From: Thermoplasmata archaeon
GTDB lineage: Archaea > Thermoplasmatota > Thermoplasmata > Lutacidiplasmatales > UBA184
Direction: 5' to 3'
Assembly (NCBI GenBank): GCA_021817605.1
Contig: JAKAUN010000005.1
Span: 38,248 to 102,247 of the forward strand
Length of the DNA: 64,000 nt
The position numbers and the translations under genes were made by a program. The notes beneath the pieces are model-generated. The model was not told the DNA's origin, searched no databases, and was given only the letters and a program-made list of their open reading frames with translations. Below, piece after piece: positions 9,104 to 60,449 of the stretch; positions within the stretch are counted from its first letter, which is position 1; the number at the start of each line of letters is the position of its first letter.

Positions 9104-9564
9104 ACCGTCCGCGCGACGCCCGACCGGCCGCTCCCGGGGCGGTGGGACACGTCGGCGGTGCCGGTTTGGCTCAGGAGGTCCTCGAGGGGGACGGTGCGCG
9201 GCGGCAGCGCCACGCGCAGCCGGTGGCGGGTCGTCTTCGGGGGGAACGGCTCGCCCCGGGTCGCGCGGCGGACGACCTCCTCCTTGGCGATCGGCGGGCC
9301 GGGCCGCCACGGCTCGAGGTCAACCTCGTCGCTGTCGTAGTCGAAGACCCAGGCGGCCGCCCAGTGGGCGCCGAGACGACGCAACGCCTCGACCCGGTGG
9401 TGCCCGTTCAGGATCACGAGCGAGCCGCGAGCGACCCAGATCGGCTCGTCGAAGGAGCCCGAACGGCGCAGCCGTCGCACGAGCTGCTCGACCTTGCGCG
9501 GGTCGTACTCCTCGTGTCCCTTGAGGCGCTCGATCGGGACGAGCGCGAACTCGGGCGCGCTCAC
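9100..9564 (-). CDS. ParB/Srx-fold protein (SerK-like free-serine kinase or ParB-like nuclease domain)
   Basis: MSAPEFALVPIERLKGHEEYDPRKVEQLVRRLRRSGSFDEPIWVARGSLVILNGHHRVEALRRLGA; NGHHR motif; overlaps hcrB stop. Confidence 0.75.
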   Translation of the reverse strand: MSAPEFALVPIERLKGHEEYDPRKVEQLVRRLRRSGSFDEPIWVARGSLVILNGHHRVEALRRLGAHWAAAWVFDYDSDEVDLEPWRPGPPIAKEEVVRRATRGEPFPPKTTRHRLRVALPPRTVPLEDLLSQTGTADVSHRPGSGRSGVARTV

Positions 9565-10547
9565 GCCCCGGCTCCCGGGGGCCGGGCCTCGGCGAGGGCG
9601 CGACGGACGTAGACGGAAACCATGCGACGTCGGTAGTCGGGGAGCAGGAAGGTGTTGTGCACCGGCCGGACCGCGCGCGCCACCGCCTCCCCGAGAGCCC
9701 GCAGTTCCGCGTCGTCGAGCGCGCTTCCTTCGAGCGGCCCGGTGAGCTCGTCGAACCGGCGGGGGAAAGTCTCCGCGCCTCCGACGGCGAGCCGGAGCTC
9801 GGTTGCCCTGCCGTCCTGCCATCGTGCTGCGACCGCCACCCCGAGCTCGGGGAAGTCGAACGACGGACGGACGCGCAACTTGAGATAACGGCCGCGACGC
9901 CCCCGCGCCGAGCGGGGAAGGTGGACCGCCACGAGCAGCTCGCCGGGCGCGAGCGTGAGCCGTCGGATCCCGTCGCCCGAGGCGTCGTAGAGCTCGGCGA
10001 GCGGCACGCGACGCCGTCCGGAGGGGCCGGCGAGCTCGACCTCGGCGTCCGAGACGAGCAGCGCGGGGGCGAGGTCGCCGGAGAAGGTCGCGTAACAGCG
10101 CTCCTTCTGCGGGACGACGTGGCAACGGTCGCCGTCCGCCTTGAGGCAGAAGCCGAGGCTCGCGCGCCAGAAGTAGCTCTGGTTGAAGAAGAAGCACCGG
10201 GTCTCGACCAAGAGGTTGCCGCCGACCGTCCCGCTCGCGCGGACGAGGGGCGTCGCGACCGAGTCGAGCGCGTCCGAGAGCGCCGGGAACTCGCGTCGAA
10301 GATCGCTGTCGCGCTCGAGGTCGGCGAGACGCGCCATCGCCCCGAGGCGGTCGAGCGAGTGGCCCCCGAGCTCTCCGACCCGGTCGAGGGCGACCAGGTG
10401 GCCCTTGACATTGAGATGCATCTTGTAGTTCGGCAGGAGGTCGGTCCCCCCGGCCAGGTAGTCGAACCGGCCGGAGAGCTCGCGGACGAGGGCCATCGTC
10501 TCCTCCACGGAGCTCGGGCGGTGGAGCTCGAACGGGTCGAGGTGCAT
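9561..10547 (-). CDS. hcrB: 4-hydroxybenzoyl-CoA reductase beta (FAD, extra [4Fe-4S]) subunit
   Basis: CO-dehydrogenase FAD-binding domain plus insertion ETRC-x15-C-x7-C-x8-C (Cys 118/134/142/151). Confidence 0.88.
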   Translation of the reverse strand: MHLDPFELHRPSSVEETMALVRELSGRFDYLAGGTDLLPNYKMHLNVKGHLVALDRVGELGGHSLDRLGAMARLADLERDSDLRREFPALSDALDSVATPLVRASGTVGGNLLVETRCFFFNQSYFWRASLGFCLKADGDRCHVVPQKERCYATFSGDLAPALLVSDAEVELAGPSGRRRVPLAELYDASGDGIRRLTLAPGELLVAVHLPRSARGRRGRYLKLRVRPSFDFPELGVAVAARWQDGRATELRLAVGGAETFPRRFDELTGPLEGSALDDAELRALGEAVARAVRPVHNTFLLPDYRRRMVSVYVRRALAEARPPGAGA

Positions 10548-10550
10548 CGC

Positions 10551-12875
10551 CTAGTTCCCCTTCCAGCGCCGGCCTTCCTTCGTCCGCTGGTCGAGCGCAC
10601 GGAGCACCCGGTCCGGGGTGATCGGCAGTTCGGTGAAACGGCAGCCGATCGCGTCGTGGAGGGCGTTCGCGACCGCCGGTAGGATCGCGATGAGGGGGCC
10701 TTCGCCGGCCTCCTTCGCGCCGAACGGCCCCGCGGGGTCGTCCTCTCCGACCAGCAGGATCTCGACCTCGGGCATCTGTTGGGGCGTCGGGATCTTGTAC
10801 TCGAGCAGCGACGGGTTGAGGAGGCGCGAGCCGCGGTAGTTCATCGACTCGCCGAGGACCTGCCCGAGGCCCATGTGGACCGACCCCTCGATCTGGCCCT
10901 CGACCGCGAGGCGGTTGAGCGGGCGGCCGCAGTCGAACGCCGCCCAGACCTTCGGGACGCGGTACTCGCCCGTGTCGGTGTCGACCTCGACCTCCGCGAC
11001 GTAGGCGGCGAACGAGTAGGCCGGGGCCGTCCCGGCGCGCGCTCCCTTGAACTTCCCGCCGAGCGGCTTGGTCTGGAACGAGCCGCTCGCGCTGAGCGCG
11101 CCGGTCTCCTCCATCGCGGCGTGCACCGCCTCGAGGAAGCTCACGCCTCGGGAAGGGTCGGCGGCCCTCTCGACCCGCTCGTGGGCGACCCGCAGTTCCT
11201 CTGCGGGCAGCCCGAGTAGGCGCGAGGCGCCTTCCAAGAGCTTCGCGCGCAGATCGAGCGCCGCGGAGCGGGCGGCGTTGCCCATCATGAACGTCACGCG
11301 GCTAGAGTAGGAGCCGAGGTCGACCGGGCTCACGTCCGAGTCGACGCGCTGGACGTGGACCCGCTCAAGATCCACGCCGAGCACCTCGGCGACGATCGCG
11401 GCGAGAAGGGTGTTCGACCCCTGGCCGATGTCGGCCTGCATGGAGTGCACGGCGATCCCGCCGTCCATGTCGACCTTGAGGTGGACGGTCGACTGCGGCA
11501 TCTTCGGGGTGAAGTGGATCGGGCTGTTCGACCCGGAAATGTAGAAGCCGCAGCCCAACCCGACGCCGCGCCCGTAGGGGAGCTGGCGGAACTTTCCGTC
11601 CCAGCCGCTCTTCGCGCGCGCCGCGTCGAGGCAGGCGACGAAGGAGGTCGAGGTGATGCGGAACTCGTTGACCGTCGTGGAATGGGGCGGCAGCGCGTTG
11701 CGCGAGCGCAGCTCGAACGGGTCGATCCCGATCTCCTCGGCCAACCGATCGAGGGCGACCTCGACCGTGTAGCGGACGTTCGTCCCGCCGTGCGCCCGCA
11801 TCGCGCCGCTCGGCGGCTTCGTGGTGTAGACCCGCCGCCCGCGGTAGCGGAAGTTCGGGACCCGGTAAGGGCCCATCGCGAGCACGCCGTTGTAGTAGGT
11901 CGTCACCGTCCCGAAGGAGCTCCAGGCGCCGCCGTCGATCACGGCGGAAAGGTCGTAGGCGAGGATCTTGCCCTCGGCATCGGTCGCCACCCGTAGGTCG
12001 TTCTGCGTGGGGTGACGCCCGTGGTTGGTGAGGAAGACGTCCTCGCGGTCGAGGAGCATCTTCACCGGGCGGCCGGTCTCGAGGGCGAGCGCCGCGCAGA
12101 CGATCTCGTGAGGGAGGGGGTCGGACTTCCCCCCGAAGCCTCCGCCGACCTCGGGCTTGATCACCCGGATGCGGTGCATCGGCAGGCCGAGCACTTCGGA
12201 GAGGGTGCGGTGGAGATAGTGCGGCACCTGCGTCGCGCTCCAGACGGTGAGCCGTCCGTCGGGGGTCGCCTCCGCGACGGTCACGAGCGGCTCGGTGAAC
12301 GCATGGGTGACACCCGAGAACGTGCCGCGGACCCGGACCGTGTGGGCGGCGCGGGCGAAGGCGGCGTCCACATCCCCGAACTGCTGGACGACCTCCTTCT
12401 GGACGTTGGTCCCGGCGAGGCCGCGGGCGTGGATCGGCTCGGCGACCTTGCCCAGCCCGGTCTGCGGGTCGGGGTACTCCTCGAGCGGCTCGACGTCGAC
12501 CTTGATGAGGGCGAGGGCCCGCTCGGCGGTGAGCTCGTCGACCGCGGCGACCGCGGCGACGATGTCGCCCTGGTAGCGGGTCTTGCCGACGGCGAGCGCC
12601 GTCTCGTCGTGGGTGATCGGCAGCACCCCGAACGGGACCGGGTAGCGCTCTCCGGTGAGGACGGCGAGGACGCCGGGGAGCGCGCGGGCGGCCCGGGTGT
12701 CGATCGCTCGGAGCCTCGCGTGGGCCCACGGGCTCCGCAGGAGCCGGCCGACGAGCTGGCCGGGGCGCTGGATGTCGTCCGTGTACTCCGCGCGACCCGT
12801 CACCTTGAGGGGGCCCTCGACGTAGGGGATCCGCCCTCCGAGCAGCCGGTACGGCTCCTCGGGTCCCGAGGCCAT
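10551..12875 (-). CDS. hcrA: 4-hydroxybenzoyl-CoA reductase alpha (molybdopterin) subunit
   Basis: MASGPEEPYRLLGGRIPYVEGPLKVTGRAEYTDDI...; xanthine-oxidase-family large subunit, 774 aa from ATG 12875, which overlaps the gamma-subunit stop (ATGA). Confidence 0.85.
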   Translation of the reverse strand: MASGPEEPYRLLGGRIPYVEGPLKVTGRAEYTDDIQRPGQLVGRLLRSPWAHARLRAIDTRAARALPGVLAVLTGERYPVPFGVLPITHDETALAVGKTRYQGDIVAAVAAVDELTAERALALIKVDVEPLEEYPDPQTGLGKVAEPIHARGLAGTNVQKEVVQQFGDVDAAFARAAHTVRVRGTFSGVTHAFTEPLVTVAEATPDGRLTVWSATQVPHYLHRTLSEVLGLPMHRIRVIKPEVGGGFGGKSDPLPHEIVCAALALETGRPVKMLLDREDVFLTNHGRHPTQNDLRVATDAEGKILAYDLSAVIDGGAWSSFGTVTTYYNGVLAMGPYRVPNFRYRGRRVYTTKPPSGAMRAHGGTNVRYTVEVALDRLAEEIGIDPFELRSRNALPPHSTTVNEFRITSTSFVACLDAARAKSGWDGKFRQLPYGRGVGLGCGFYISGSNSPIHFTPKMPQSTVHLKVDMDGGIAVHSMQADIGQGSNTLLAAIVAEVLGVDLERVHVQRVDSDVSPVDLGSYSSRVTFMMGNAARSAALDLRAKLLEGASRLLGLPAEELRVAHERVERAADPSRGVSFLEAVHAAMEETGALSASGSFQTKPLGGKFKGARAGTAPAYSFAAYVAEVEVDTDTGEYRVPKVWAAFDCGRPLNRLAVEGQIEGSVHMGLGQVLGESMNYRGSRLLNPSLLEYKIPTPQQMPEVEILLVGEDDPAGPFGAKEAGEGPLIAILPAVANALHDAIGCRFTELPITPDRVLRALDQRTKEGRRWKGN

Positions 12876-13348
12876 CAGGCCCCCTCCCGCGCGGCCGCTT
12901 CGATCGCCCGGACGATCTTGAGATAGCCGGTGCACCGGCACAGGTTGCCCGAGATCGCCTCTTCGATCTCCGAACGGCTCGGGGAGGGATGCTCGCGCAA
13001 GAACGCGGTCGCGGTAAGTACGAAGCCGGGGGTGCAGAAGCCGCACTGGGTCGCTCCGTGCTCCACGAACGACCGCTGGACCGGGGAGAGGCCCTTCGCC
13101 GGGGTGACCCCTTCGATGGTCGTCACCTCCCGCCCCTCGACGAGGCGGGCAAGCGTGAGGCAGCTGAGCGTCGGCCTCCCGTCCAGCAACACGGTGCAGC
13201 AGCCGCAGGTGCCGAGGTCGCAGCCGCGCTTGGTGCCGGTGAGGCGGAGGTCCTCGCGGAGAAGGTCGAGCAGGATCCTCTCGTCGGCGCAGGCATGCGC
13301 CGCCGGCTGTCCGTTCAGCCGGAACCTAATCTCGTGGGGAGCCGACAC
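12875..13348 (-). CDS. hcrC: 4-hydroxybenzoyl-CoA reductase gamma (2x[2Fe-2S]) subunit
   Basis: 157 aa with GCDLGTCGCCTVLLDG, CGFCTPG and NLCRCTGY motifs. Confidence 0.88.
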   Translation of the reverse strand: MSAPHEIRFRLNGQPAAHACADERILLDLLREDLRLTGTKRGCDLGTCGCCTVLLDGRPTLSCLTLARLVEGREVTTIEGVTPAKGLSPVQRSFVEHGATQCGFCTPGFVLTATAFLREHPSPSRSEIEEAISGNLCRCTGYLKIVRAIEAAAREGA

Positions 13349-14171
13349 CTTCCTCCGCGGAGGCTCGCGCAGCAGTAGGTAAGCTCGACGGGGCTCGGCC
13401 CGGGTGGAGGTCGCGGACGATCTCGGCGACGATGCTCATCGCGATCTCCGCCGGCGTCTCGGCGCCGAGAGGGATCCCGACCGGCGACCGGACGCGGGCG
13501 AGTGCCTCGCGAGGGATCCCTCGGGCGCGCAACCCGGCGAAGATGTGCTCGCGCTTGGCGGCGGAGGCGATGAGGCCGATGGTGTTGGGGAACGAGCGGA
13601 TCGCCTGGAAGAGGACCTCGGCGTCCCTCTGAGCGTCGTAGCCGAGGAGCAGAAGATGGGTGAACTCGGTAGGGTCGAAGACCCGGAAGATCTCCGAGGG
13701 AGCGACCAGCTCCCGACGCTCCGCCTCCGCGAACCTCTCCCGACCCAGGTAGTCGGGCCGGTCGTCGGCCAGCGAGTAGTCGACCTCGACGGTCAGGAGC
13801 AACCGGGCGACCGCTTGGGCGACATGTCCCCCGCCCCAGAGCAGCACGTTGGGCCGGGCCGCCACGTACTCGAGAGCGATGTCGACCGACCCACCGCATA
13901 GGCTCGGGAGGCCGCCGGTCTTCCACGCCGCCAGGTCGAAGTGGAGCAGCTCGCCGTGACGCCGTTCGAGGGCCCGAAGAGAGGCGTGCTTGACCTCCTC
14001 CTCGAGGGAGGCCCCGCCGACGGTCCCCAGCGTCGTCCCGTCGTCCCGCACGAGGAGCGTCGCGCCCACCTTACCGGGGACCGAGCCCACGGAGCGTACG
14101 ACGCTCGCGCGCACGAACGCGCGGTGGCTCTCGAGCAGGCGGAGCGCCTCGCGGGCGGTCTGGCGGTCCAT
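13326..14171 (-). CDS. XdhC/CoxI-family molybdoenzyme maturation factor
   Basis: MDRQTAREALRLLESHRAFVRASVVRSVGSVPGKVGATLLVRDDGTTLGTVGGASLEEEV; GGGHVAQAVA Rossmann motif. Confidence 0.88.
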   Translation of the reverse strand: MDRQTAREALRLLESHRAFVRASVVRSVGSVPGKVGATLLVRDDGTTLGTVGGASLEEEVKHASLRALERRHGELLHFDLAAWKTGGLPSLCGGSVDIALEYVAARPNVLLWGGGHVAQAVARLLLTVEVDYSLADDRPDYLGRERFAEAERRELVAPSEIFRVFDPTEFTHLLLLGYDAQRDAEVLFQAIRSFPNTIGLIASAAKREHIFAGLRARGIPREALARVRSPVGIPLGAETPAEIAMSIVAEIVRDLHPGRAPSSLPTAARASAEEGVGSPRD

Positions 14172-14180
14172 CGGAGCGGC

Positions 14181-14795
14181 CTACTCCTCCTCGCTCGCCG
14201 CCCAGGCGTCATGCGCGGAGCGGTACTCCTCGGGCGTGTCGACGTTCGCCACCACCGCCGGGTCCTCCACGTCCAGGCGGCAGACCTGGGGTCCGAACTC
14301 GGGGAGGAGGGAACGGATCGGCGCGTCGGTCCTCAGGTTGAGGATCTCCTCGCGCACCCGGGGTCTCCAGAGGACCGGATGGCCACCCTCGCCCCGGTAG
14401 GTCGGGAGGAACCAGACCGCGAGGAGGTCGCGTTCGCGCGCGGCGAGGAGACGATCGATCGTCCGGGGAGCGACAAAAGGGTGGTCGACCGGCCAGAACA
14501 GGACGTCACGGTCCGCCGGCAGGGAGAGCAACCCGGCTTGGACGGAGGCGGTCCGACCCTCGTACCACCGCTCGGCGTCCACCGCGGTGACCGCAAGGTC
14601 GCGCAGCTCGTGGACGATCGGGGCGCGATGGGGGCCGACGACCACGACGACCGGGTCGAAGCCGTCGGCCAGGCAGATCTCCGCCATACGCCGCACCGAA
14701 GTGCGTTCTCCGACCCGAAGGAGCGCCTTCGGCTCCCCTCCGAACCGGGAGGAGGCTCCGGCGCTCAGGAGAAGGGCCGCCGTAGCCGACGTCAC
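14181..14795 (-). CDS. mocA: MobA-like NTP transferase, probable molybdenum cofactor cytidylyltransferase
   Basis: LLLSAGASSRFGGEPKALLRVGERTSVRRMAEI...VLFWPVDHPFVAPRTID. Confidence 0.82.
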   Translation of the reverse strand: MTSATAALLLSAGASSRFGGEPKALLRVGERTSVRRMAEICLADGFDPVVVVVGPHRAPIVHELRDLAVTAVDAERWYEGRTASVQAGLLSLPADRDVLFWPVDHPFVAPRTIDRLLAARERDLLAVWFLPTYRGEGGHPVLWRPRVREEILNLRTDAPIRSLLPEFGPQVCRLDVEDPAVVANVDTPEEYRSAHDAWAASEEE

Positions 14796-50702: not shown

Positions 50703-51455
50703 ATGTTTTTCATCGATAACCTTGCCTTCACGGAAGCGTTGCTCTTCTTCGCGGCCGCGTTGCTCACCTACGTGGGACTGACGACCTGGTGGGCGATGCG
50801 CCAGAACGAGCCGGACAAGGTGCAGGCCTCCCTCAAGGGCGCCGCGCTGCCGATCGGTGCTGTCGGTTTCACCGCGGTGACGCTCGGCCTCTGGGAAGAG
50901 ATGGTCTGGCCGTACCCGAGCGTGATGGGCCAGTACGACATCATGTTCAACGATGTCACGCTCATCTTCGGGATCGTCCTCATCGCCCTCGCCGCGACGG
51001 CCTATCTCGGGCTCCGACTCCAGTACGTCGGTGTTCTCGCCTTCATGGCCGGGGTCGTCACCCTCCTCTACGGGTGGACCGCCTACGGCTACGGCTACAC
51101 CAAGGAGCCGTTCCAGATGCTCCTGCTCTACGCGGGCTTCTCCATGGCGGGGATCCTCTCCCTGCCGGCGACGATCATCACCGACTACTACCTCGGCACG
51201 GTCGCCAAGAGCCCGACCGCCTGGCGCACCACGGCCCCCGCGACCTCGCGGCTGGCCCGGTTCGGCACCCGCGGGGTCCAAGGGTTCAGCGGCGGCTCGC
51301 GCCCGGAGGGGAGCGGCTCGACGCTGCGCTACCGCGTGCCGATGTACCTCCACATCATCCTGCTGCTCTTCCCGGTGTTCATGGCGCTCGCCGGGGTGGC
51401 AGCCTGGGGCTACCTGGGAACGACGGTGCCCGCCCACCTCAAGAGCCCGCCGTAG
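50703..51455 (+). CDS. DUF981-type multi-TM membrane protein
   Basis: MFFIDNLAFTEALLFFAAALLTYVGLTTWWAMRQNEPDKVQASLKGAALPIGAVGF...; several hydrophobic helices. Confidence 0.75.
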   Translation: MFFIDNLAFTEALLFFAAALLTYVGLTTWWAMRQNEPDKVQASLKGAALPIGAVGFTAVTLGLWEEMVWPYPSVMGQYDIMFNDVTLIFGIVLIALAATAYLGLRLQYVGVLAFMAGVVTLLYGWTAYGYGYTKEPFQMLLLYAGFSMAGILSLPATIITDYYLGTVAKSPTAWRTTAPATSRLARFGTRGVQGFSGGSRPEGSGSTLRYRVPMYLHIILLLFPVFMALAGVAAWGYLGTTVPAHLKSPP

Positions 51456-51612: not shown

Positions 51613-52635
51613 CTACGGGAGGAGGACCGTCCTCAGGCCCTCTCCCTGCCGCAGCGCGCGTAGCCCCTCCTGAAAGCGGAGGAGGGGAAGGCGCTGGGTG
51701 ACGACCGGGTCGAGGCGGACCTTGCCGCGTCGGACCAGATCGATGACCTTGGGATAGCTGGCGGGAGGGCAGCCGAGCGACCCGAGCACGGTGTACTCGA
51801 AGAACATCGCCCGATTCGCCGGCAGCGCCGCCGGGTTGGCGCTGTAGCCGACCAGGCAGAGCCGACCGCCACGACGCAGCGCCGAGAAGCCGAGGGCGAT
51901 CGTCTCGGGTCGGCCCACGACCTCGAAGGCGACGTCCGCTCCCTCGCCGAAGTGCTTCCGCAGCTCCCGCGCCGGGTTCTCGACCTTGGCGACGTTGATC
52001 GTCGCCTCGGCTCCGAGCTCGCGGGAGATCGCGAGCTTCTCCTCCGAGACGTCGAGCGCCACGACCTCGGCTCCCGCCGCGGCGGCGAACTGGACGACGT
52101 TGATCCCCACCCCTCCGCACCCGATCACCGCCACCCGCTCCCCCGGGCGGACCTGGGCCCGCTCGACCACGGCATGGTAGGGAGTCGTGAGCGCGTCGGC
52201 GATCACCGCCCCGCTGATCGGGTCGATCCCGGGAGGGAGGGGTACGAGGTCCTTCGCCGGGACGCAGAGGTACTTGGCGAAGCCGCCGTCGATGTGGTTG
52301 CCGGGCATCTTCGCGTCGGGGCAGAGGTTCTCTCGACCGCCCCGGCAGTAGCCGCAGCGTCCGCACGGCAAGAGCGCCGGAACGAGCACCTGTTGCCCGA
52401 CGGGGGGCGAAGCGGCCCCCTCCCCGAGAGCGTCGACCACCCCGGAGATCTCGTGGCCGAGCACCAGCGGCGGGCTCTTCGCCGTCGCGACCCCGTGGTC
52501 GAGGTAATGGAGGTCCGTGTGACAGAGCCCGCACGCCGACACCTCGACCCGCGCCTCGCCGGCGGCGGGCTCGGGCCGCGGGAGCTCCTTAGCCTCGAGG
52601 GGGCCCCCGACCGCGGTGAGCACGAGCGCCTGCAT
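51613..52635 (-). CDS. had: 6-hydroxycyclohex-1-ene-1-carbonyl-CoA dehydrogenase-like zinc alcohol dehydrogenase
   Basis: GLCHTDLHYLDHGVATAKSPPLVLGHEISGVV...LLPCGRCGYCRGGRENLCPDAKMPGNHIDGGFAKYL; operon context. Confidence 0.82.
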   Translation of the reverse strand: MQALVLTAVGGPLEAKELPRPEPAAGEARVEVSACGLCHTDLHYLDHGVATAKSPPLVLGHEISGVVDALGEGAASPPVGQQVLVPALLPCGRCGYCRGGRENLCPDAKMPGNHIDGGFAKYLCVPAKDLVPLPPGIDPISGAVIADALTTPYHAVVERAQVRPGERVAVIGCGGVGINVVQFAAAAGAEVVALDVSEEKLAISRELGAEATINVAKVENPARELRKHFGEGADVAFEVVGRPETIALGFSALRRGGRLCLVGYSANPAALPANRAMFFEYTVLGSLGCPPASYPKVIDLVRRGKVRLDPVVTQRLPLLRFQEGLRALRQGEGLRTVLLP

Positions 52636-52639
52636 CGGC

Positions 52640-53413
52640 TCACCCGCTCGGCGTCGGCCAGACCGGCGCGCGCTTCTCGAGGAACGCCCGAAGGCCTTCC
52701 TCGGCGTCCGGGAGCTGGACGATCTCCTTGAGGTAGCCGGCTTCCGCCTTCGAAAGCTCCTGCCACGGGAACGGATCGGCTGCCTGCCAGAGCCGCTTCA
52801 TGATCGTAAGGGTCTCGTGCCGGTGCGAGGAGAACGCGCGCACGACGCCGTCGAGCTCACCCTCGAGCTCGGCGTCCGGCACGCTTCGCGAGACGAGACC
52901 GAGGAGGGCAGCGCGCTCGGCCGAGAGGGTCCGGCCGGTGAAGAGGATCTCGGCGGCGGCCTTCGGACCGACCTGCCGGGAGAGGGCGGCAAGGGCCACC
53001 GGGGGAAAGACCCCGAGGCGGACCTCGGGCTGGCCGAACGTCGCCGAGGCCGAAGCGAGGGCCATGTCGCACGGCAGCAGTAGCTCGAGCCCCCCGCCGA
53101 GGCAGGGGCCCTCGACGACGGCGAGGGTGGGGACGGGCACCTCCCAGATCGCCCGGAGAAGGTCGTGGAAGGCGGCGAACATCGGGGAGAGCTTCGCTCC
53201 CATGTGGTCGGCGACCGAGAGCCCGGCGCTCCAGGCGCCGTAGCCGCCCCGCAGGACGAGAAGGTTCGCGTGACGGATCTCCTCTCCGCGTAGCGCCTCG
53301 GCGACCCGCTCGAGGAGGTCGTGGTCGAAGACGTTGAGCGGCGGCCGTCGCCAGCTCAGGGTCCGAGCTGCGCCGTGGTGCTCGAGACGGACGGTGCCTG
53401 CGGTCGTGGCCAT
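52640..53413 (-). CDS. dch: cyclohexa-1,5-diene-1-carbonyl-CoA hydratase-like crotonase
   Basis: RRPPLNVFDHDLLERVAEALR...GYGAWSAGLSVADHMGAKLSPMFAAFHDLLRAIWEVPVPTLAVVEGPCLGGGLELLLPCDMALAS. Confidence 0.83.
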   Translation of the reverse strand: MATTAGTVRLEHHGAARTLSWRRPPLNVFDHDLLERVAEALRGEEIRHANLLVLRGGYGAWSAGLSVADHMGAKLSPMFAAFHDLLRAIWEVPVPTLAVVEGPCLGGGLELLLPCDMALASASATFGQPEVRLGVFPPVALAALSRQVGPKAAAEILFTGRTLSAERAALLGLVSRSVPDAELEGELDGVVRAFSSHRHETLTIMKRLWQAADPFPWQELSKAEAGYLKEIVQLPDAEEGLRAFLEKRAPVWPTPSG

Positions 53414-53424
53414 CGTTGCGTCTC

Positions 53425-54660
53425 CTAGTCGAACATGATCGACTCGACGAACGTCTCGAGCTGCAGGCGCGCCTGCTCGTAGGCGGTCGAGCGCTCCTCG
53501 AACTCAAGATGGAGGTAGGGGACCTTGCGGCGGTCGAGCGCCTGGCGGTAGAGAACGACGTCCTCGAGGGCCGGCTCGCAGAACTTCGCGGTGAGGAACA
53601 CGACCCCCTTGGCTCCGGTCGCGTCCAGACGGGAGAGGATCGCCTCGCCCTTGGTCGTCGGCGTCGCCCGGACGCCGATGTCCATCCGCGAGTCGACGTA
53701 GGCGCGGGCGAGGCGCTCGAGCGCGCTGCCGCCGGGCGGGACGGAAGGATACCAGCGATGCGCCTGGAGGAGGTCGTCGTCGACGACCTCGCAGCCGACC
53801 TGCTCGAGCAGGTCGAGGAGCTCGAGCGTCGGTTGCTCGCAGAAAGGGCCGACCAGAAGGACCTTGATCGCGTCGCGGGCCGGGCGCGCGCGGTGCTCGA
53901 GCTCGGAGGCGGCGCGCTCGAGCATCGCTACGTGGAGCTCGCGCGGCACCAATCCTCCGAGACGGCGCAGGACGTACGACTCGCTGAGCGAGAGGGACGG
54001 GCGCTCTCCCTGCTTGGCCGAGAGGAGGCGGCGGATGCCGGCCCGCTGGAGGTCGAACAGCTCGATCGAGCTCGCGAGGGCCTCCTCGGTCAGCGGCGAG
54101 CCGCCCGCCGCCCGGAACCGTTCGGCCAGCCGCGAGTACTCGTGGACGAGGAACGGGAGCGCCGCCGGGGTGTGGAAGTTCTGCGGAAGATGCAGCATGA
54201 ACGTCTCCCGGCCCGGGACCAGTCGGGGGAAGATCCCCTCGAGGTTGCGGGAGACGTCGCAGATGTACGGGAAGACGACGGCCCTGAACGCCTCGAGCCC
54301 GCCGGTGAGCCCGAGCTCGAGGGTCGATTTGCTGATCGAGCAGAGGAACGAGCCGAGCGCGGCGTCCGCGTGGTTGATCTCGAGGTTCTCCCCGCCGCCG
54401 TGCAGCGCGACGGGGACCAGCCCCATCGCGTGGGCGATCTCCTGAGGCGTGTAGACCGGAAAGCAGCCGACGACCCCCCGGCCCGCACGTGCGAGGGCGC
54501 GCGCGGTCGGATAGGTCGGATCGCTCAGCACCTCGCGGCCAAGCCGGACCATCTCCTCGATCGTCGCGGCGCGCGCGAACTCGCCCAGGTCCTCCGAGAG
54601 CTCGACCGACGGCGTGGCCGCCGGTTCGGGAAGGTTCCCCAAGGAGAGGAGGCCGCCCAC
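53425..54660 (-). CDS. bcrC: benzoyl-CoA reductase subunit C-like (HgdB/BcrC family)
   Basis: 411 aa; VVGCFPVYTPQEIAHAMGLVPVALHGGG...FLCSISKSTLELGL...FPYICDVSRNLEGIF...VLLVGPFCEQPTLELLDLLEQVGCEVVDDDL. Confidence 0.85.
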   Translation of the reverse strand: MGGLLSLGNLPEPAATPSVELSEDLGEFARAATIEEMVRLGREVLSDPTYPTARALARAGRGVVGCFPVYTPQEIAHAMGLVPVALHGGGENLEINHADAALGSFLCSISKSTLELGLTGGLEAFRAVVFPYICDVSRNLEGIFPRLVPGRETFMLHLPQNFHTPAALPFLVHEYSRLAERFRAAGGSPLTEEALASSIELFDLQRAGIRRLLSAKQGERPSLSLSESYVLRRLGGLVPRELHVAMLERAASELEHRARPARDAIKVLLVGPFCEQPTLELLDLLEQVGCEVVDDDLLQAHRWYPSVPPGGSALERLARAYVDSRMDIGVRATPTTKGEAILSRLDATGAKGVVFLTAKFCEPALEDVVLYRQALDRRKVPYLHLEFEERSTAYEQARLQLETFVESIMFD

Positions 54661-54664
54661 GGGC

Positions 54665-55492
54665 TCACCCCACCGCCCCGACGAGCGGAGCCACCGACGC
54701 GGCCGGCCCGGCCTTCGTAAGGCGGGTATAGCCGAGGACCGCCGCCCCGATCGCCGCGGCGTAGGGTCCGTGGACGTTCGCGTTCACCGGCAGCTTGACC
54801 GTCTGCTCGAGGGCGCGGACCATCGCCTCGCATCCGACCAGCCCTCCGACCAGGGTGACCTCGGGCTCGATCCCGACGTAGCGCATCAGGGCATGTCCGC
54901 GCTGGGCGAGGGAGAGCAGCACCCCCATGAGGATGTCCGGCAGCGCGACGCCCTCGGAGATGTTGTTGATGATCTCGGTCTCGGCGAGCACCGCGCAGAC
55001 GCTCGAGATCGTCTTCGGGCTGCGGGCGGAGAGCGCCTTCGCCGAGATCTCCTCCAGAGGCACCTGGAGGTACTTCGAGCAGCGCTCGACGAACCGCCCG
55101 GCGCCGGCGGCGCACTTCTCGTTCATCTTGAAGCGGCCGACCTTCCCGGCGGGCGTCACCGCGATCGAGCGGGACGACTGGGCCCCGATGTCGACGACGT
55201 GGCGCGTGCCGGGGAAGAGGAAGACCGCGCCGCGGGCCGAGGCGGTGATGTCGCTCAGCTGGAGATGGCGCTCGGGGTAGGCGTAGCGGCCGAAGCCGGT
55301 GGTGGCGAGGTAGCGGACCTCTCCGGGGAGGACGTTCGCCTCCTCCACGAGACGCTCTACGATCTGATGGCCGATCGCGGCCGGCTGCCCTCGGGTCGGC
55401 AGCCTCGCCTCGGCAAGGAGACGCACCCCGTCCTCGAGGAGGGCCCCCTTGGTCGACCCCGAGCCGAGGTCGAGCCCCACGGTGATCGTCAC
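54665..55492 (-). CDS. bcrD: benzoyl-CoA reductase ATPase subunit (BcrD/BzdP-like, BadF/BcrA family)
   Basis: GTG at 55492: MTITVGLDLGSGSTKGALLEDG...VVDIGAQSSRSIAV...MNEKCAAGAGRFVERCSKYL (cluster-binding Cys). Confidence 0.85.
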   Translation of the reverse strand: MTITVGLDLGSGSTKGALLEDGVRLLAEARLPTRGQPAAIGHQIVERLVEEANVLPGEVRYLATTGFGRYAYPERHLQLSDITASARGAVFLFPGTRHVVDIGAQSSRSIAVTPAGKVGRFKMNEKCAAGAGRFVERCSKYLQVPLEEISAKALSARSPKTISSVCAVLAETEIINNISEGVALPDILMGVLLSLAQRGHALMRYVGIEPEVTLVGGLVGCEAMVRALEQTVKLPVNANVHGPYAAAIGAAVLGYTRLTKAGPAASVAPLVGAVG

Positions 55493-56286
55493 GAGCCCCC
55501 CGTCGCGGGCCGGGAGAGCCTCTCGGCGCCGAACAGCGCGGCGCCGACGGCGCCGAGGTACTGCGAGAGCGGGCTCACGTTCACGTGGAGCCCGACCTTG
55601 CGCTCGAGCGCCCGGACCATCCCTTCGTTGCGGGAGACCCCGCCGGTGAACGTCACCTCGGGGGCGACCCCGACCCTCTGCATGAGGGAGAACGAGCGGC
55701 TCGCGATGGAGGCGTGGAGGCCGGCGAGGACGTCCTTCGGGTCCTTTCCCCGGGCGACGTAGCTCGTCACCTCCGACTCGGCGAAGACCGTGCAGGTGCT
55801 CGTGACCTTGAGCGGGTGGCGCGCCTCGAGCGAGAGCGCTCCGATCTCCGCGACGTCGTAGCCGAGAGCCCCCGCGCAGACGTCCAGGAAGCGGCCGGTT
55901 CCCGCGGCGCACTTGTCGTTCATGGCGAAGTCGATCACCTCGCCGCGCTCGCCGACACGGATCGCCTTGGTGTCCTGCCCTCCGATGTCGACCACGAGAC
56001 GGGTTCCCGGAAAGAGGAAGTGCGCGCCGCGGGCGTGGCAGCCGATCTCGGTGACGGCCTCCTGGCCGAAGGTCACTTTGAAGCGGCCGTAGCCGGTGCC
56101 GGTGACGAAACGGATCTCCGAACGGTCCCGATGCGCGTCCCCAAGCGCCTGCTCGAGGGCCTTTTCGGCGTCACGGACGAGCTCGACGCCGACCGGGGCG
56201 AGCGATTTCCCCACGACATTTCCGTCGTCGAGGAGGACGCACTTGGCCGTCGTCGAGCCGATGTCGACTCCCGCGACCAGCGTCAT
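55489..56286 (-). CDS. bcrA: benzoyl-CoA reductase ATPase subunit (BcrA/BzdQ-like)
   Basis: ATG at 56286: MTLVAGVDIGSTTAKCVLLDDG...VVDIGGQDTKAIRV...MNDKCAAGTGRFLDVCAGALG. Confidence 0.87.
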   Translation of the reverse strand: MTLVAGVDIGSTTAKCVLLDDGNVVGKSLAPVGVELVRDAEKALEQALGDAHRDRSEIRFVTGTGYGRFKVTFGQEAVTEIGCHARGAHFLFPGTRLVVDIGGQDTKAIRVGERGEVIDFAMNDKCAAGTGRFLDVCAGALGYDVAEIGALSLEARHPLKVTSTCTVFAESEVTSYVARGKDPKDVLAGLHASIASRSFSLMQRVGVAPEVTFTGGVSRNEGMVRALERKVGLHVNVSPLSQYLGAVGAALFGAERLSRPATGGS

Positions 56287-57551
56287 GGGGTCCCCCCGGC
56301 GGCCGGGGAGGCCGGCTTGAGCGACTCGAAGAAGGCGTCCATGCGGTTCTTGATCTGCGCCGGGGCGAAGTAGCGAGGGTCCTCGTGGTCGGACTCGAGG
56401 TAGAGCGTCGGGATGCCGCGCTCGTGGAGGAGCCAATCGCGCAGGTCCCCCTGCCCCGCCGTGAACGAGCGGCACGACTTGATCCCGTGGATCACCACCG
56501 CGTCGGCGGCGTAGTCGCGAACGTAGGAGGCGATGAGCTCGCGGCGCAGCGGCCATGCCTCGTTGACGTAGGCTCCGACGGAGTACTCCGCGATGCTCTC
56601 GAGAGGACGGGACGGGTCGTGGAGGAACCCCTGGTCGAAGAGCCCGCCGACCTTCGGATAGGTCGCCGCGACCGAGACCGCGCCCCAGCGTCTGAAGAAG
56701 TCCCAGAACGTCCGGTAGCTCGGGTACGGCGGCACCCCCTCGACGACGACGCGGAACTTCTCCTCGGGGACCGGATACTGGCCTTCGCGCACGCGCGCCG
56801 CCACCTCCTCGTTGACGAGGGCGTAGAACTCCGCGGCCTCGGGCGTGCCGCGCAGCACGTTGATCGGGAACATGTAGAAGACCGCCTCGAAGTAGGCCTC
56901 GATCGGCGACGGCCTCTGGCGCCCTGCGTGGAGGTAGTCGACCCACCCCTCCTCGGCGCGACGCGACGCGCCGAGGGTCCGGACGAGCTCGGCACGGTCG
57001 AAGGAGCGGCCCGTGGTCCTCTCGAGCAGCGCGATGAGCTCCTCGAGCTGGGCGGTGACGTAGGCGATCTCCTCCTTGCGGGGCGTCGGCTCGCGGAGGT
57101 AGGGGACGTCCAGCATGAACAGCGGGACGCCGTAGCGCTCGGCGAGCGCCTCCCACCACTTCACGTAGACATAGCAGCCCGAGAAGCTACAGACGAGCAG
57201 GTCGGGCGGAGGGATCTTGCCGAACGGGGTGAGGCCGCCGAGCTCCTGGAGGCCGAGGTCGTTCTTGACGTAGCCGCAGACGTCCAGGCCGTAGCCCTGC
57301 GCCTCGGCGTTGAGGATGTTGGGGAGCGAGGCATGCTTGATCGCGCAGTTGAGCGCCACGATCTCGGGAAAGACGAGCTCGTAGCCGAAGGATCGGACGA
57401 TCTCGGCGAGGTTGCCGCCCACCAGCATGTAGGCGACCGGCTTTCTCCCGGAGTCGGTGCGTGCGAGCTCTTGGTAGTAGGCGTCCGTGAGCTCGCGCTG
57501 CCGGTCGCGGGCCTGGGTCAGCGCCGGGGAGGGAGCCGGTCGCTCGGCCAT
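56283..57551 (-). CDS. bcrB: benzoyl-CoA reductase subunit B-like (HgdB/BcrB family)
   Basis: 422 aa; PVAYMLVGGNLAEIVRSFGYELVFPEIVALNCAIKHASLPNILNAEAQGYGLDVCGYVKNDLG...LLVCSFSGCYVYVKWWE. Confidence 0.86.
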   Translation of the reverse strand: MAERPAPSPALTQARDRQRELTDAYYQELARTDSGRKPVAYMLVGGNLAEIVRSFGYELVFPEIVALNCAIKHASLPNILNAEAQGYGLDVCGYVKNDLGLQELGGLTPFGKIPPPDLLVCSFSGCYVYVKWWEALAERYGVPLFMLDVPYLREPTPRKEEIAYVTAQLEELIALLERTTGRSFDRAELVRTLGASRRAEEGWVDYLHAGRQRPSPIEAYFEAVFYMFPINVLRGTPEAAEFYALVNEEVAARVREGQYPVPEEKFRVVVEGVPPYPSYRTFWDFFRRWGAVSVAATYPKVGGLFDQGFLHDPSRPLESIAEYSVGAYVNEAWPLRRELIASYVRDYAADAVVIHGIKSCRSFTAGQGDLRDWLLHERGIPTLYLESDHEDPRYFAPAQIKNRMDAFFESLKPASPAAGGTP

Positions 57552-57566
57552 CGCCCCTCCCTCCGA

Positions 57567-58694
57567 CTAGGCCCCCGGCGGGGAGGGCGTCGTCAGGAGC
57601 TCGCCGCAGCGGCCGCAGTAGCGGAACGCCTCGGGAAGGCCGTCCTGGCCGCAGGACGGGCACGAGCGCACGGGAGCTCCGTGGAGGAAGCCGACCTCCT
57701 GGCCGTCCGCGAGGCGGCGGCGCATCTCGGAGATCCGAGGAGGCCGCTTGTCGACGAAGGAGTGCATTCCCTCGTACGGCTCGGCGGTAGCGAAGTGGAG
57801 GGTGAGCCACTCCTGAGCGTGGCCGACCGTCTGGTTCCAGGCGAGCTCCTTCCAGAAGTTCGCCTGGGCCTTCGTGTAGCGCAGGCACTCCGGGAACATC
57901 TCAAGGAGCCGCCCGGAGAGCCGGTCGACCGCCGTGTCCAGCTCGGAGAGGTCGACCCGGTGATTGCGCTCCTCCTTCTGGGCCCAGCGGATCGCCTCGG
58001 CCGAGGGAGCGGAGAGCCACGTGCCGTCGTGCCGCACCGACGGAGCGACCTCGGAGACGAGCCCCCAGTCGAGCGCCTCGGCGGCGCCGACCCGCTCGTT
58101 GAGGAAGAGCATCCGACGGGCGCGGCGATCGCCGACCGTGAGCGGGAGCCACTGGGTCGCGCCGCCGGCGGCGACCGACCCGACCCCCACCCCGACCTGC
58201 CCGATCACCGCGTGCTCGGCGGCGACGGAGAGGTCGCAGGCGAGGTGGAGCTCGTTGCCTCCGCCGATCGCCATGCCGTTGACCCGCGCGATGGTCGGCT
58301 TGCCGACCCGCAGGATCGACTCGACGACCTCGCGGAAGAGCTGCATGTACTTCCAGTAGTCGCGCGGCCGCCGGACGAACCGCTCGGCGTACTCCTTGAC
58401 GTCGCCGCCGGTGCAGAACGCCCGCGAACCGCTGCCGGTGAGCACCACCACGCCCACGGAGTCGTCCAGGGCGGCGTCACGGAACCGCTCCTTGAGATGC
58501 GCGAGGGTCGCCGTGGTGTAGGCGTTGAGCGCGGCGGGGCGGTCGATCGTGATGCGCGCGACCCCGTCCTTCTTTTCGTAGCGCACGTCCTCCACCGAGC
58601 TCCCCGCGACGCCGTCCCGCGGGTGGAGGGGGTCGTCGGCGGCTGGGGGGGAACGCGCCATCGTAGTAGGACGGGCCCGACTCGACATGTCCAA
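57567..58694 (-). CDS. oah: 6-oxocyclohex-1-ene-1-carbonyl-CoA hydrolase-like, with C-terminal zinc-ribbon extension
   Basis: DYWKYMQLFREVVESILRVGKPTIARVNGMAIGGGNELHLACDLSVA...GGATQWLPLTVGDRRARRM...LLEMFPECL; C-terminus CPSCGQDGLPEAFRYCGRCGELL; alternative ATG 58661. Confidence 0.83.
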   Translation of the reverse strand: MDMSSRARPTTMARSPPAADDPLHPRDGVAGSSVEDVRYEKKDGVARITIDRPAALNAYTTATLAHLKERFRDAALDDSVGVVVLTGSGSRAFCTGGDVKEYAERFVRRPRDYWKYMQLFREVVESILRVGKPTIARVNGMAIGGGNELHLACDLSVAAEHAVIGQVGVGVGSVAAGGATQWLPLTVGDRRARRMLFLNERVGAAEALDWGLVSEVAPSVRHDGTWLSAPSAEAIRWAQKEERNHRVDLSELDTAVDRLSGRLLEMFPECLRYTKAQANFWKELAWNQTVGHAQEWLTLHFATAEPYEGMHSFVDKRPPRISEMRRRLADGQEVGFLHGAPVRSCPSCGQDGLPEAFRYCGRCGELLTTPSPPGA

Positions 58695-58828: not shown

Positions 58829-59653
58829 ATGAACCTCGAGGTCGAGAGAGAAGGGCCCGTGACGCTCCTCACGCTCAACCGCCCCGAGCATCTCAACGCT
58901 ATCGACCCGGAGACGCACCGGGCCCTGGTCGATGCGTGGAGGCAGTTCGCCGAGGACCCCGGGCTACGCGTCGCCGTCCTTACCGGCAAGGGCTCCCGGG
59001 CGTTCTCGGCAGGGATTGACGTCCACCGCCTCGACGAGTTCTACCGCGAAAGCCGACCGGGCGAGCGTCTATGGCGCTGGCTGCGCGAGCCCGGGCTCGG
59101 AGGGATCACGCGCAACCTGGACCCGGGCAAGCCGATCGTCGCGGCGATCGACGGCTACTGCCTCGGCGGCGGCCTCGAGCTCGCGCTGGCCTGCGACCTC
59201 AGGATCGCCACGCCCCGCTCGACCTTCGGCCTTCCCGAGGTCCGCTGGGGGATCATCCCAGGCCAGGGGGGGACCCAGCGCCTTCCCCGTGCGGTGCCTC
59301 TCGCGGTGGCCTCCGAGATGATCCTCACCGGCCGCGCGATCCCGGCACGACGGGCGCTCGAGGTCGGGCTGATCAACCGCGTAGTGCCCGCGCGGCGGCT
59401 GCGGGCCGAGGCGCTTCGTCTCGCCCGCGAGATCGCGGGCCATCCCCCCGAAGCCGTGCGACGCGCGCGTCGGGCGCTGCGCGAGGGCCTCGGGCTCCCG
59501 CTGGACGCCGCGCTCCGTCTTGAGCAGCGCCTTGCCGATCCCCTTCGGAACCCGGGCAAGTTCCCCGGGGGCAAAGGCGGCAGCAAGCCCCGGACCGCGG
59601 TCCGGGGTCGCCTTCGCGGGGACCGGCGACGCGGCACACCCTCCCGCGGCTGA
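58829..59653 (+). CDS. enoyl-CoA hydratase/isomerase family protein
   Basis: MNLEVEREGPVTLLTLNRPEHLNAIDPETHRAL...VAAIDGYCLGGGLELALACDLRIATPRSTFGLPEVRWGIIPGQGGTQRLPR. Confidence 0.92.
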   Translation: MNLEVEREGPVTLLTLNRPEHLNAIDPETHRALVDAWRQFAEDPGLRVAVLTGKGSRAFSAGIDVHRLDEFYRESRPGERLWRWLREPGLGGITRNLDPGKPIVAAIDGYCLGGGLELALACDLRIATPRSTFGLPEVRWGIIPGQGGTQRLPRAVPLAVASEMILTGRAIPARRALEVGLINRVVPARRLRAEALRLAREIAGHPPEAVRRARRALREGLGLPLDAALRLEQRLADPLRNPGKFPGGKGGSKPRTAVRGRLRGDRRRGTPSRG

Positions 59654-59681: not shown

Positions 59682-60449
59682 TCAGAGCGTGGAGAGCGCC
59701 GGGTCGAGCATCTTCGCCTCGGCACGCCGAAGGAGCTCGGCGGTCGCCGAGCGGCTGATCCCAAGGATGCGGGAGATCTCGTGGAGGTTGGTGCGGCGGG
59801 GGAAGGCGTAGAACCCGAGACGATAGGCGGTCTCGATGGCGGCCGACTGCCGGGTGGTGAGGGCGCGGGTCGGGCGATACTTGCGTGCGCGGTAGACGGT
59901 AGGCGTCTCGCCGCCCGAGGCGTCCCGCAGGGAGGCGACGAGCCGGCCGACCCTCGGGCTTCTCGGAAGCAGGAGGTTCCAGCGGTCTCGACGCCCGCCC
60001 TCAGCGCTCGGAAGGTACCGGCAGGAGGTGCAGACAGCTCCGGTCTTCAACACCATACCGCACGCCGGCGGCAGCGCGGAGACGACGCGGACGACGCGGC
60101 GGGACGGAGCGAGCGGGACGACGGTGACCTCCTTGACCTTCGAAGGACCGAGGAGGTAGCGCTCGACCGCCTCGAGGTCTCCCGGCGAGCCGACCAGCTC
60201 GACGACCTGCAAGAGGCGGCTCGGGGTGCGCACCATCGGTCGGCAGACCTGGATCTTCGCACGGACCGGCCAGCGGGTCGTCACCTCGCGGAGCCATTGG
60301 ACCTCGTTGCCCGCGGAGACCTCGACCTCGATGAGGGGGAGCCCGGAGAGAGCGTCCGAGCCGGACCGGGGCCGCGCAGAGGCGGCCCGGGCGGAACGGG
60401 CAACGGCCCCCATCGTCATCGCGGCCTTCGCGACGGTCCGGGGCCTCAT
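59682..60449 (-). CDS. bacterio-opsin-activator-type (HTH_10) transcriptional regulator
   Basis: C-terminal LTTRQSAAIETAYRLGFYAFPRRTNLHEISRILGISRSATAELLRRAEAKML; ATG at 60449. Confidence 0.88.
   Translation of the reverse strand: MRPRTVAKAAMTMGAVARSARAASARPRSGSDALSGLPLIEVEVSAGNEVQWLREVTTRWPVRAKIQVCRPMVRTPSRLLQVVELVGSPGDLEAVERYLLGPSKVKEVTVVPLAPSRRVVRVVSALPPACGMVLKTGAVCTSCRYLPSAEGGRRDRWNLLLPRSPRVGRLVASLRDASGGETPTVYRARKYRPTRALTTRQSAAIETAYRLGFYAFPRRTNLHEISRILGISRSATAELLRRAEAKMLDPALSTL

Follow-up and report, generated by a model that had tools for sequence, protein, structure and literature searches.

We analysed a window of 64,000 nt, which corresponds to positions 38248-102247 of contig C5 in a Thermoplasmatota genome of 1.75 Mb and 16 contigs (estimated as 100% complete and 0.14% contaminated). 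Its minus strand carries, from 58688 down to 51613, seven ORFs with no sizeable gap between neighbours, all present in the co-directional order proposed in the initial annotation: oah (57567-58688); bcrB (56283-57551), for the active-site [4Fe-4S] subunit of a class I benzoyl-CoA reductase; bcrA (55489-56286), for a short-form ATPase/activase subunit; bcrD (54665-55492), for a second, divergent ATPase/activase subunit; bcrC (53425-54660), for the second FeS subunit of the reductase; dch (52640-53413), for cyclohexa-1,5-diene-1-carbonyl-CoA hydratase; and had (51613-52635). The span first given, 51613-58694, stands apart from the start of oah, which is most likely ATG 58688 (373 aa) rather than TTG 58694, because homologues align from there. 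The junctions had also been described as mostly stop-start overlaps; two of the six do overlap, each by 4 nt (bcrB/bcrA and bcrA/bcrD), whereas the other four are gaps of 15, 4, 11 and 4 nt, a spacing still typical of a single transcription unit.

The operon is conserved. Ten further genomes of the genus encode BcrB homologues with 71-86% identity, and a synteny check in other Thermoplasmatota recovered all seven genes in this order in at least 15 assemblies, among them MAGs with loci L034, L035, L036, L037, L040, L048, L050, L051, L061 and L062 and a genome of another class, G061. Given this recurrence, and E-values against the expected families from 2e-38 (Dch) to 4e-100 (BcrB), chance resemblance is excluded. 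Oah (E 1e-60 or better) is found in 14 of the 23 family genomes listed in the phylum sample and not in the other nine. A divergent Thermoplasmata locus, L053, has the order oah-C-B-A-D-dch-had, and two other Thermoplasmata genomes (G052, locus L031; G053, locus L033) hold BZD-type class I reductase gene sets, which brings the number of class I types in the phylum to two or more.

Next to oah, a divergently transcribed crotonase (enoyl-CoA hydratase; 58829-59653, plus strand; PF00378, E 4e-54), found beside oah in many loci of the same family, is a plausible β-oxidation helper. It is followed by a Bat-type HTH_10 protein (59682-60449, minus strand; PF04967, 59.8 bits), a candidate regulator, with a homologue close to the operon in 10 loci. 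On the operon's other side lies a gene for a DUF981 membrane protein (50703-51455, plus strand).

The reductase and its activases

For the five proteins with pathway-specific NCBIfam models (Oah, BcrB, BcrC, Dch and Had), the correct model ranked first. The margin was large for BcrB (TIGR02260, 335 bits, versus 158 for HadB and 106 for BzdO) and moderate for BcrC over HadC (TIGR02263, 231 bits, versus 187; BzdN, 70). Against the Thauera-type equivalogs (TIGR02259-02263, TIGR03189, TIGR03200, TIGR03201) all operon proteins scored under the curated cut-off, and hence we regard the operon as a divergent lineage rather than filing it as Thauera type, with an exact substrate that homology does not fix. 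Top PDB matches were MbdO (9g87) for BcrB, MbdN (9g87_B) for BcrC and MbdQ (9gai_D) for BcrA; the closest solved structures overall are thus subunits of the Mbd 3-methylbenzoyl-CoA reductase.

The active site of BzdO has the cluster ligands Cys95, Cys128 and Cys380, and Glu65 (PMC11971306), with which C92, C126, C360 and E63 of BcrB align, respectively; at the position of the catalytic His131 of BzdO there is Tyr in BcrB and Phe in MbdO. The BcrB signatures VCGYVK and IKSCRSF have counterparts in Thauera-type proteins (VCTYVK/IKSCNSF) and in MbdO (ICGYVK/VKSCRTV), and those positions differ in HadB (LCAYAR/NRSCKLM) and BzdO (LCSYMR/NRGCEGL). In BcrC, the cysteines of FCEQP and GCEVVDDD (GCxVxDDD) are common to the Thauera and Mbd types and missing in HadC and BzdN, and 19 homologues all keep C107, C134, C274 and C361, with C290 kept in nearly all of them. 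BcrC also contains a HadC-like GCFPVY motif.

BcrA, with matches to PF01869 and TIGR00241, has the cluster motifs KCAAGTGRF and STCTVFAESE; at 265 aa, compared to about 436 aa in the Thauera type, it is without the N-terminal extension of the latter. BcrD scored 180 bits with TIGR00241 and 160 bits with TIGR02261. Both proteins are above the cut-off of the general activase model TIGR00241 and below those of the BcrD, BcrA and BzdQ models, and they occupy separate clades in the activase tree. With the bridging-cluster cysteine motifs KCAAG and TCT/VCA in this pair, the operon has the two different ATPase/activase subunits that mark a class I BCR.

Reference sequences for the trees comprised Thauera-type loci with BcrB above cut-off (from Burkholderiales and a planctomycete), Mbd-like Burkholderiales loci, and MbdNO, BzdNO and HadBC from the PDB, with distant single-activase dehydratase systems and BadI, from plasmids, as outgroups. 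In the single-gene trees, BcrB and BcrC both fell inside the BCR/MBR group. In the concatenated tree they belonged to a 100/100 clade of 23 rows that includes the Thauera-type and Mbd-type reductases and leaves out HadBC, BzdNO and the single-activase dehydratases; uniting the Thermoplasmata lineage with HadBC was rejected (p-AU 4e-5). The clustering with 2-hydroxyacyl-CoA dehydratases that the initial annotation had named as fatal to its reading is therefore not what the subunits show. The reductase is not of the BZD type (BzdNOPQ) either: it lies in a separate clade, and the double-cubane ligands of BzdN (Cys36/73/100/263/293/327), tried as a template for BcrC, are incomplete, the Cys36, Cys263 and Cys293 positions being non-Cys.

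Sequences from Thermoplasmata cluster in one clade of the BCR/MBR group (100/100), next to which (89/88) stand the divergent Thermoplasmata locus L053, Planctomycetota and Zixibacteria; between Thauera and Mbd types as nearer sister, the support of 82/78, with p 0.29 for the alternative, gives no decision. Judged against this reference set, the BcrBC of Thermoplasmata are a new branch, separate from each of the characterised types (BCR, MBR and BZD). The plasmid systems L139 (Azoarcus KH32C), L141 (Rhodococcus ruber) and L140 (Rhodobacteraceae QY30), with two HGD-D-type subunits, a single activase and neighbouring genes for a CaiB-type CoA-transferase, a ligase or an acyl-CoA dehydrogenase, form a clade of their own within the BCR/HAD family.

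Ring-opening enzymes

Oah scored best with TIGR03200 (205 bits, a moderate margin over MenB at 170; BadI, 162) and grouped with Thauera-type Oah at 97/92, apart from BadI and MenB, the Thauera branch being long. It has the glutamate of GGGNE, as in Thauera-type Oah (GGG(N/Q)E), where BadI and MenB have GGGNV or GGGHV, and it shares a C-terminal extension with the Thauera type, so that a placement with generic hydratases, which the initial annotation had also named as a refutation, does not hold for Oah. An additional zinc-ribbon-like tail (C343-C346/C358-C361) has cysteines that are invariant in 14 homologues of the same Oah clade and missing from Thauera-type Oah. This zinc-ribbon clade also occurs in Gemmatimonadota (L041, L042, L045, L049, L060), in operons of the form oah-dch-bcrC-bcrB-activases(-had) with an Mbd-type reductase, a pairing which suggests that reductase and ring-opening module have been exchanged independently.

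For Dch the margin was small (TIGR03189, 132 bits, versus 123 for a generic hydratase), and its probable identity rests on this and on the LGVFPP motif (LGVFxP) and EEGLRAFLEKR tail common to Thauera-type Dch; the Dch rows came together at 93/88 in a tree with just one generic hydratase. Had showed a large margin (TIGR03201, 264 bits, versus 181 for the next family) and has the motifs CGLCHTDL, PGN..GGFA and ADALTTPYHAV (ADAxTTPYxAV), the zinc-site motif among them, as in Thauera-type Had. The assignment leans on the margin and motifs because the Had tree is weakly resolved: most of its branches are not firm, and a single Thauera row is very long.

Genomic context and interpretation

The window also holds a 4-hydroxybenzoyl-CoA-reductase (HCR)-like trio on the minus strand at 9561-13348 (beta, 9561-10547; alpha, 10551-12875; gamma, 12875-13348), with TIGR03195/03194/03193 as best matches. 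These HCR-specific models ranked first (809 bits versus 498 for the next in alpha), yet under their curated cut-offs; in beta, four cysteines align with the extra-cluster region of PDB 1rm6_B, and the two features together point to an HCR-like enzyme. XdhC-like and MobA-like maturation genes accompany the trio (9561-14687, minus strand). It may be a benzoyl-CoA feeder but is no proof of one, since members of the family that are without bcr carry it just as often (14 of 14 Oah-positive and eight of nine Oah-negative among those listed). In the phylum as a whole, 151 of 392 genomes have a homologue of beta, and most of these belong to two families outside the host's class.

Elsewhere, the genome encodes six acyl-CoA dehydrogenases, among which no glutaryl-CoA dehydrogenase could be singled out, three 3-hydroxyacyl-CoA dehydrogenases and three 2-oxoacid:ferredoxin oxidoreductases; from these gene counts, downstream β-oxidation and ferredoxin reduction are plausible. 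There is no ferredoxin gene inside the operon. No dedicated benzoate-CoA ligase was found among the three AMP-binding ligases that searches of the genome gave: two were scanned and scored below cut-off, and the third reads as acetyl-CoA-synthetase-like. Free benzoate may therefore not be the substrate.

Altogether, HMMs, trees and synteny support the complete class I benzoyl-CoA reductase with Dch, Had and Oah that had been proposed for this genome, and we give a probability of roughly 87% to its reading as a functional-looking operon for the class I (ATP-dependent) form of the central anaerobic benzoyl-CoA pathway. If it is expressed and active as its sequence predicts, reduced ferredoxin, probably generated by the 2-oxoacid:ferredoxin oxidoreductases, would deliver electrons to the BcrAD ATPase pair, and ATP hydrolysis would push them through the FeS clusters of BcrC to the three-cysteine active-site cluster of BcrB, where benzoyl-CoA would be reduced to cyclohexa-1,5-diene-1-carbonyl-CoA. 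Dch would then add water to the dienoyl-CoA, Had would oxidise the alcohol with NAD+, and Oah would hydrate and cleave the ring to 3-hydroxypimelyl-CoA, to be finished by ordinary β-oxidation enzymes.

The host is unusual company for an oxygen-sensitive enzyme, and this speaks against the benzoyl-CoA pathway reading: the genome has subunit I of an aa3-type haem-copper oxidase, and the oxidase family model matches in 75 of 81 family genomes and in 13 of the 14 Oah-positive ones of the phylum sample. The co-occurrence suggests facultative use of the pathway or its use in anoxic niches. Also counting against the reading are the pathway-specific scores under cut-off, the Tyr at the His131 position of BzdO (where MbdO has no His either), and the want of a ferredoxin gene in the operon and of an above-cut-off benzoate-CoA ligase in the genome.

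The alternative that survives best, albeit at long odds, is that the reductase acts on another aryl-CoA, such as a methyl- or hydroxy-substituted benzoyl-CoA: its nearest solved relatives belong to the 3-methylbenzoyl-CoA reductase MbdONPQ, it branches apart from the Thauera type, and none of the pathway scores reaches its equivalog cut-off. However, the operon itself includes homologues of the Dch, Had and Oah of the unsubstituted pathway, a planctomycete contig pairs the same Oah clade with above-cut-off Thauera-type Bcr, and the Mbd top match is partly a sampling effect, because the PDB matches had no Thauera-type structure. Far less probable is that BcrABCD is a 2-hydroxyacyl-CoA dehydratase and the adjoining crotonases and dehydrogenase are generic amino-acid fermentation genes. 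The superfamily is indeed identical (PF06050, PF01869) and GCFPVY recalls HadC, but the topology test, the two activases instead of one, the BCR/MBR kind of signatures in BcrB (VCGYVK/IKSCRSF) and BcrC (FCEQP/GCxVxDDD) and the pathway-specific Oah and Had largely refute it. Least credible of all is a bacterial contaminant or chimera: the closest non-archaeal relatives are in Planctomycetota and Zixibacteria, but archaeal genes such as that for TFB lie on the contig, GC content is 70.8% in the operon versus 70.7% in the window, the genome is clean and the order recurs in many independent Thermoplasmatota assemblies, another class included, and these indirect checks make MAG chimerism very unlikely.

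Keeping to the benzoyl-CoA pathway, we advance as a speculation, well short of an even bet, that the operon represents a further class I type beside BCR, MBR and BZD, in facultatively aerobic archaea that would respire oxygen, dearomatise benzoyl-CoA when anoxic and possibly be fed by 4-hydroxybenzoyl-CoA instead of benzoate. Where earlier reports of bcr in Thermoplasmatota are scattered records of presence or absence, the operon is a concrete unit of seven genes, conserved and with its catalytic residues intact, and it makes anaerobic aromatic degradation by an uncultured archaeal family directly testable. As a branch of its own, the enzyme can also serve in comparisons of the ways in which class I reductases attain very low redox potentials, and its sensitivity to oxygen makes one ask how it is put to use where an oxygen-reducing terminal oxidase is nearly always kept. 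Three features deserve to be followed up: the separate branch of the reductase, the tail on Oah and the aerobic look of the host.

Comparison with known systems

The initial annotation took Ferroglobus as the known archaeal case, a premise that is outdated, since class I bcr has been reported in Thermoplasmatota, Bathyarchaeota and Asgard archaea (PMC9239135, PMC6472368, PMC8163825). In their available text, one study gives bcrABCD for Ca. Yaplasmales (RBG-16-68-12), Thermoplasmata MAGs (PMC9239135), and another finds oah, dch and had along with bcr in a set of MAGs, Thermoplasmata and Bathyarchaeota among them (PMC6472368). The likeness to our operon is thus in class I bcrABCD and, in the latter study, also in dch, had and oah; what that text reports is gene presence, and it describes neither the order of the operon nor where its proteins fall in trees, nor the tail of Oah, nor an oxidase in the same genomes. 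For Lutacidiplasmatales, whose described GC content and size the host resembles (70.7% GC), benzo- or aromatic terms are absent from the main text of the paper on that order (PMC9287336). Hermodarchaeota (Asgard archaea) have a class I benzoyl-CoA gene cluster (PMC8163825) that is alike in being an archaeal bcr with dch and had, but they belong to another phylum, and their cluster has a ferredoxin and regulators and is reported to be near Chloroflexi BCR.

Among characterised systems, the Thauera type (BCR; bcrCBAD with dch, had and oah) matches all seven functions, with BcrB and BcrC signature motifs of the same kind, the Oah C-terminal extension and the Dch and Had signatures. It differs from the window operon in gene order (oah-B-A-D-C-dch-had in the window), in the extended BcrA and the ferredoxin that the window operon is without, and in the tail added on the window Oah; BcrC is 34% identical to a Thauera-type BcrC (L052), and scores are under the TIGRFAM cut-offs. 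MbdONPQ (MBR; PDB 9g87, 9gai) provides the closest solved structures, with short activases and the same cluster cysteines, but the window reductase is a separate, well-supported clade, and the Mbd-like Burkholderiales loci sampled (L122, L123), unlike our operon, are without dch and oah alongside. The operon is a genuine, complete and conserved one in an archaeal genome, of a kind already known, in this phylum too, to which the BcrBC branch, the Oah tail, the HCR-like trio in the same window and the oxidase-bearing host family are the new points.
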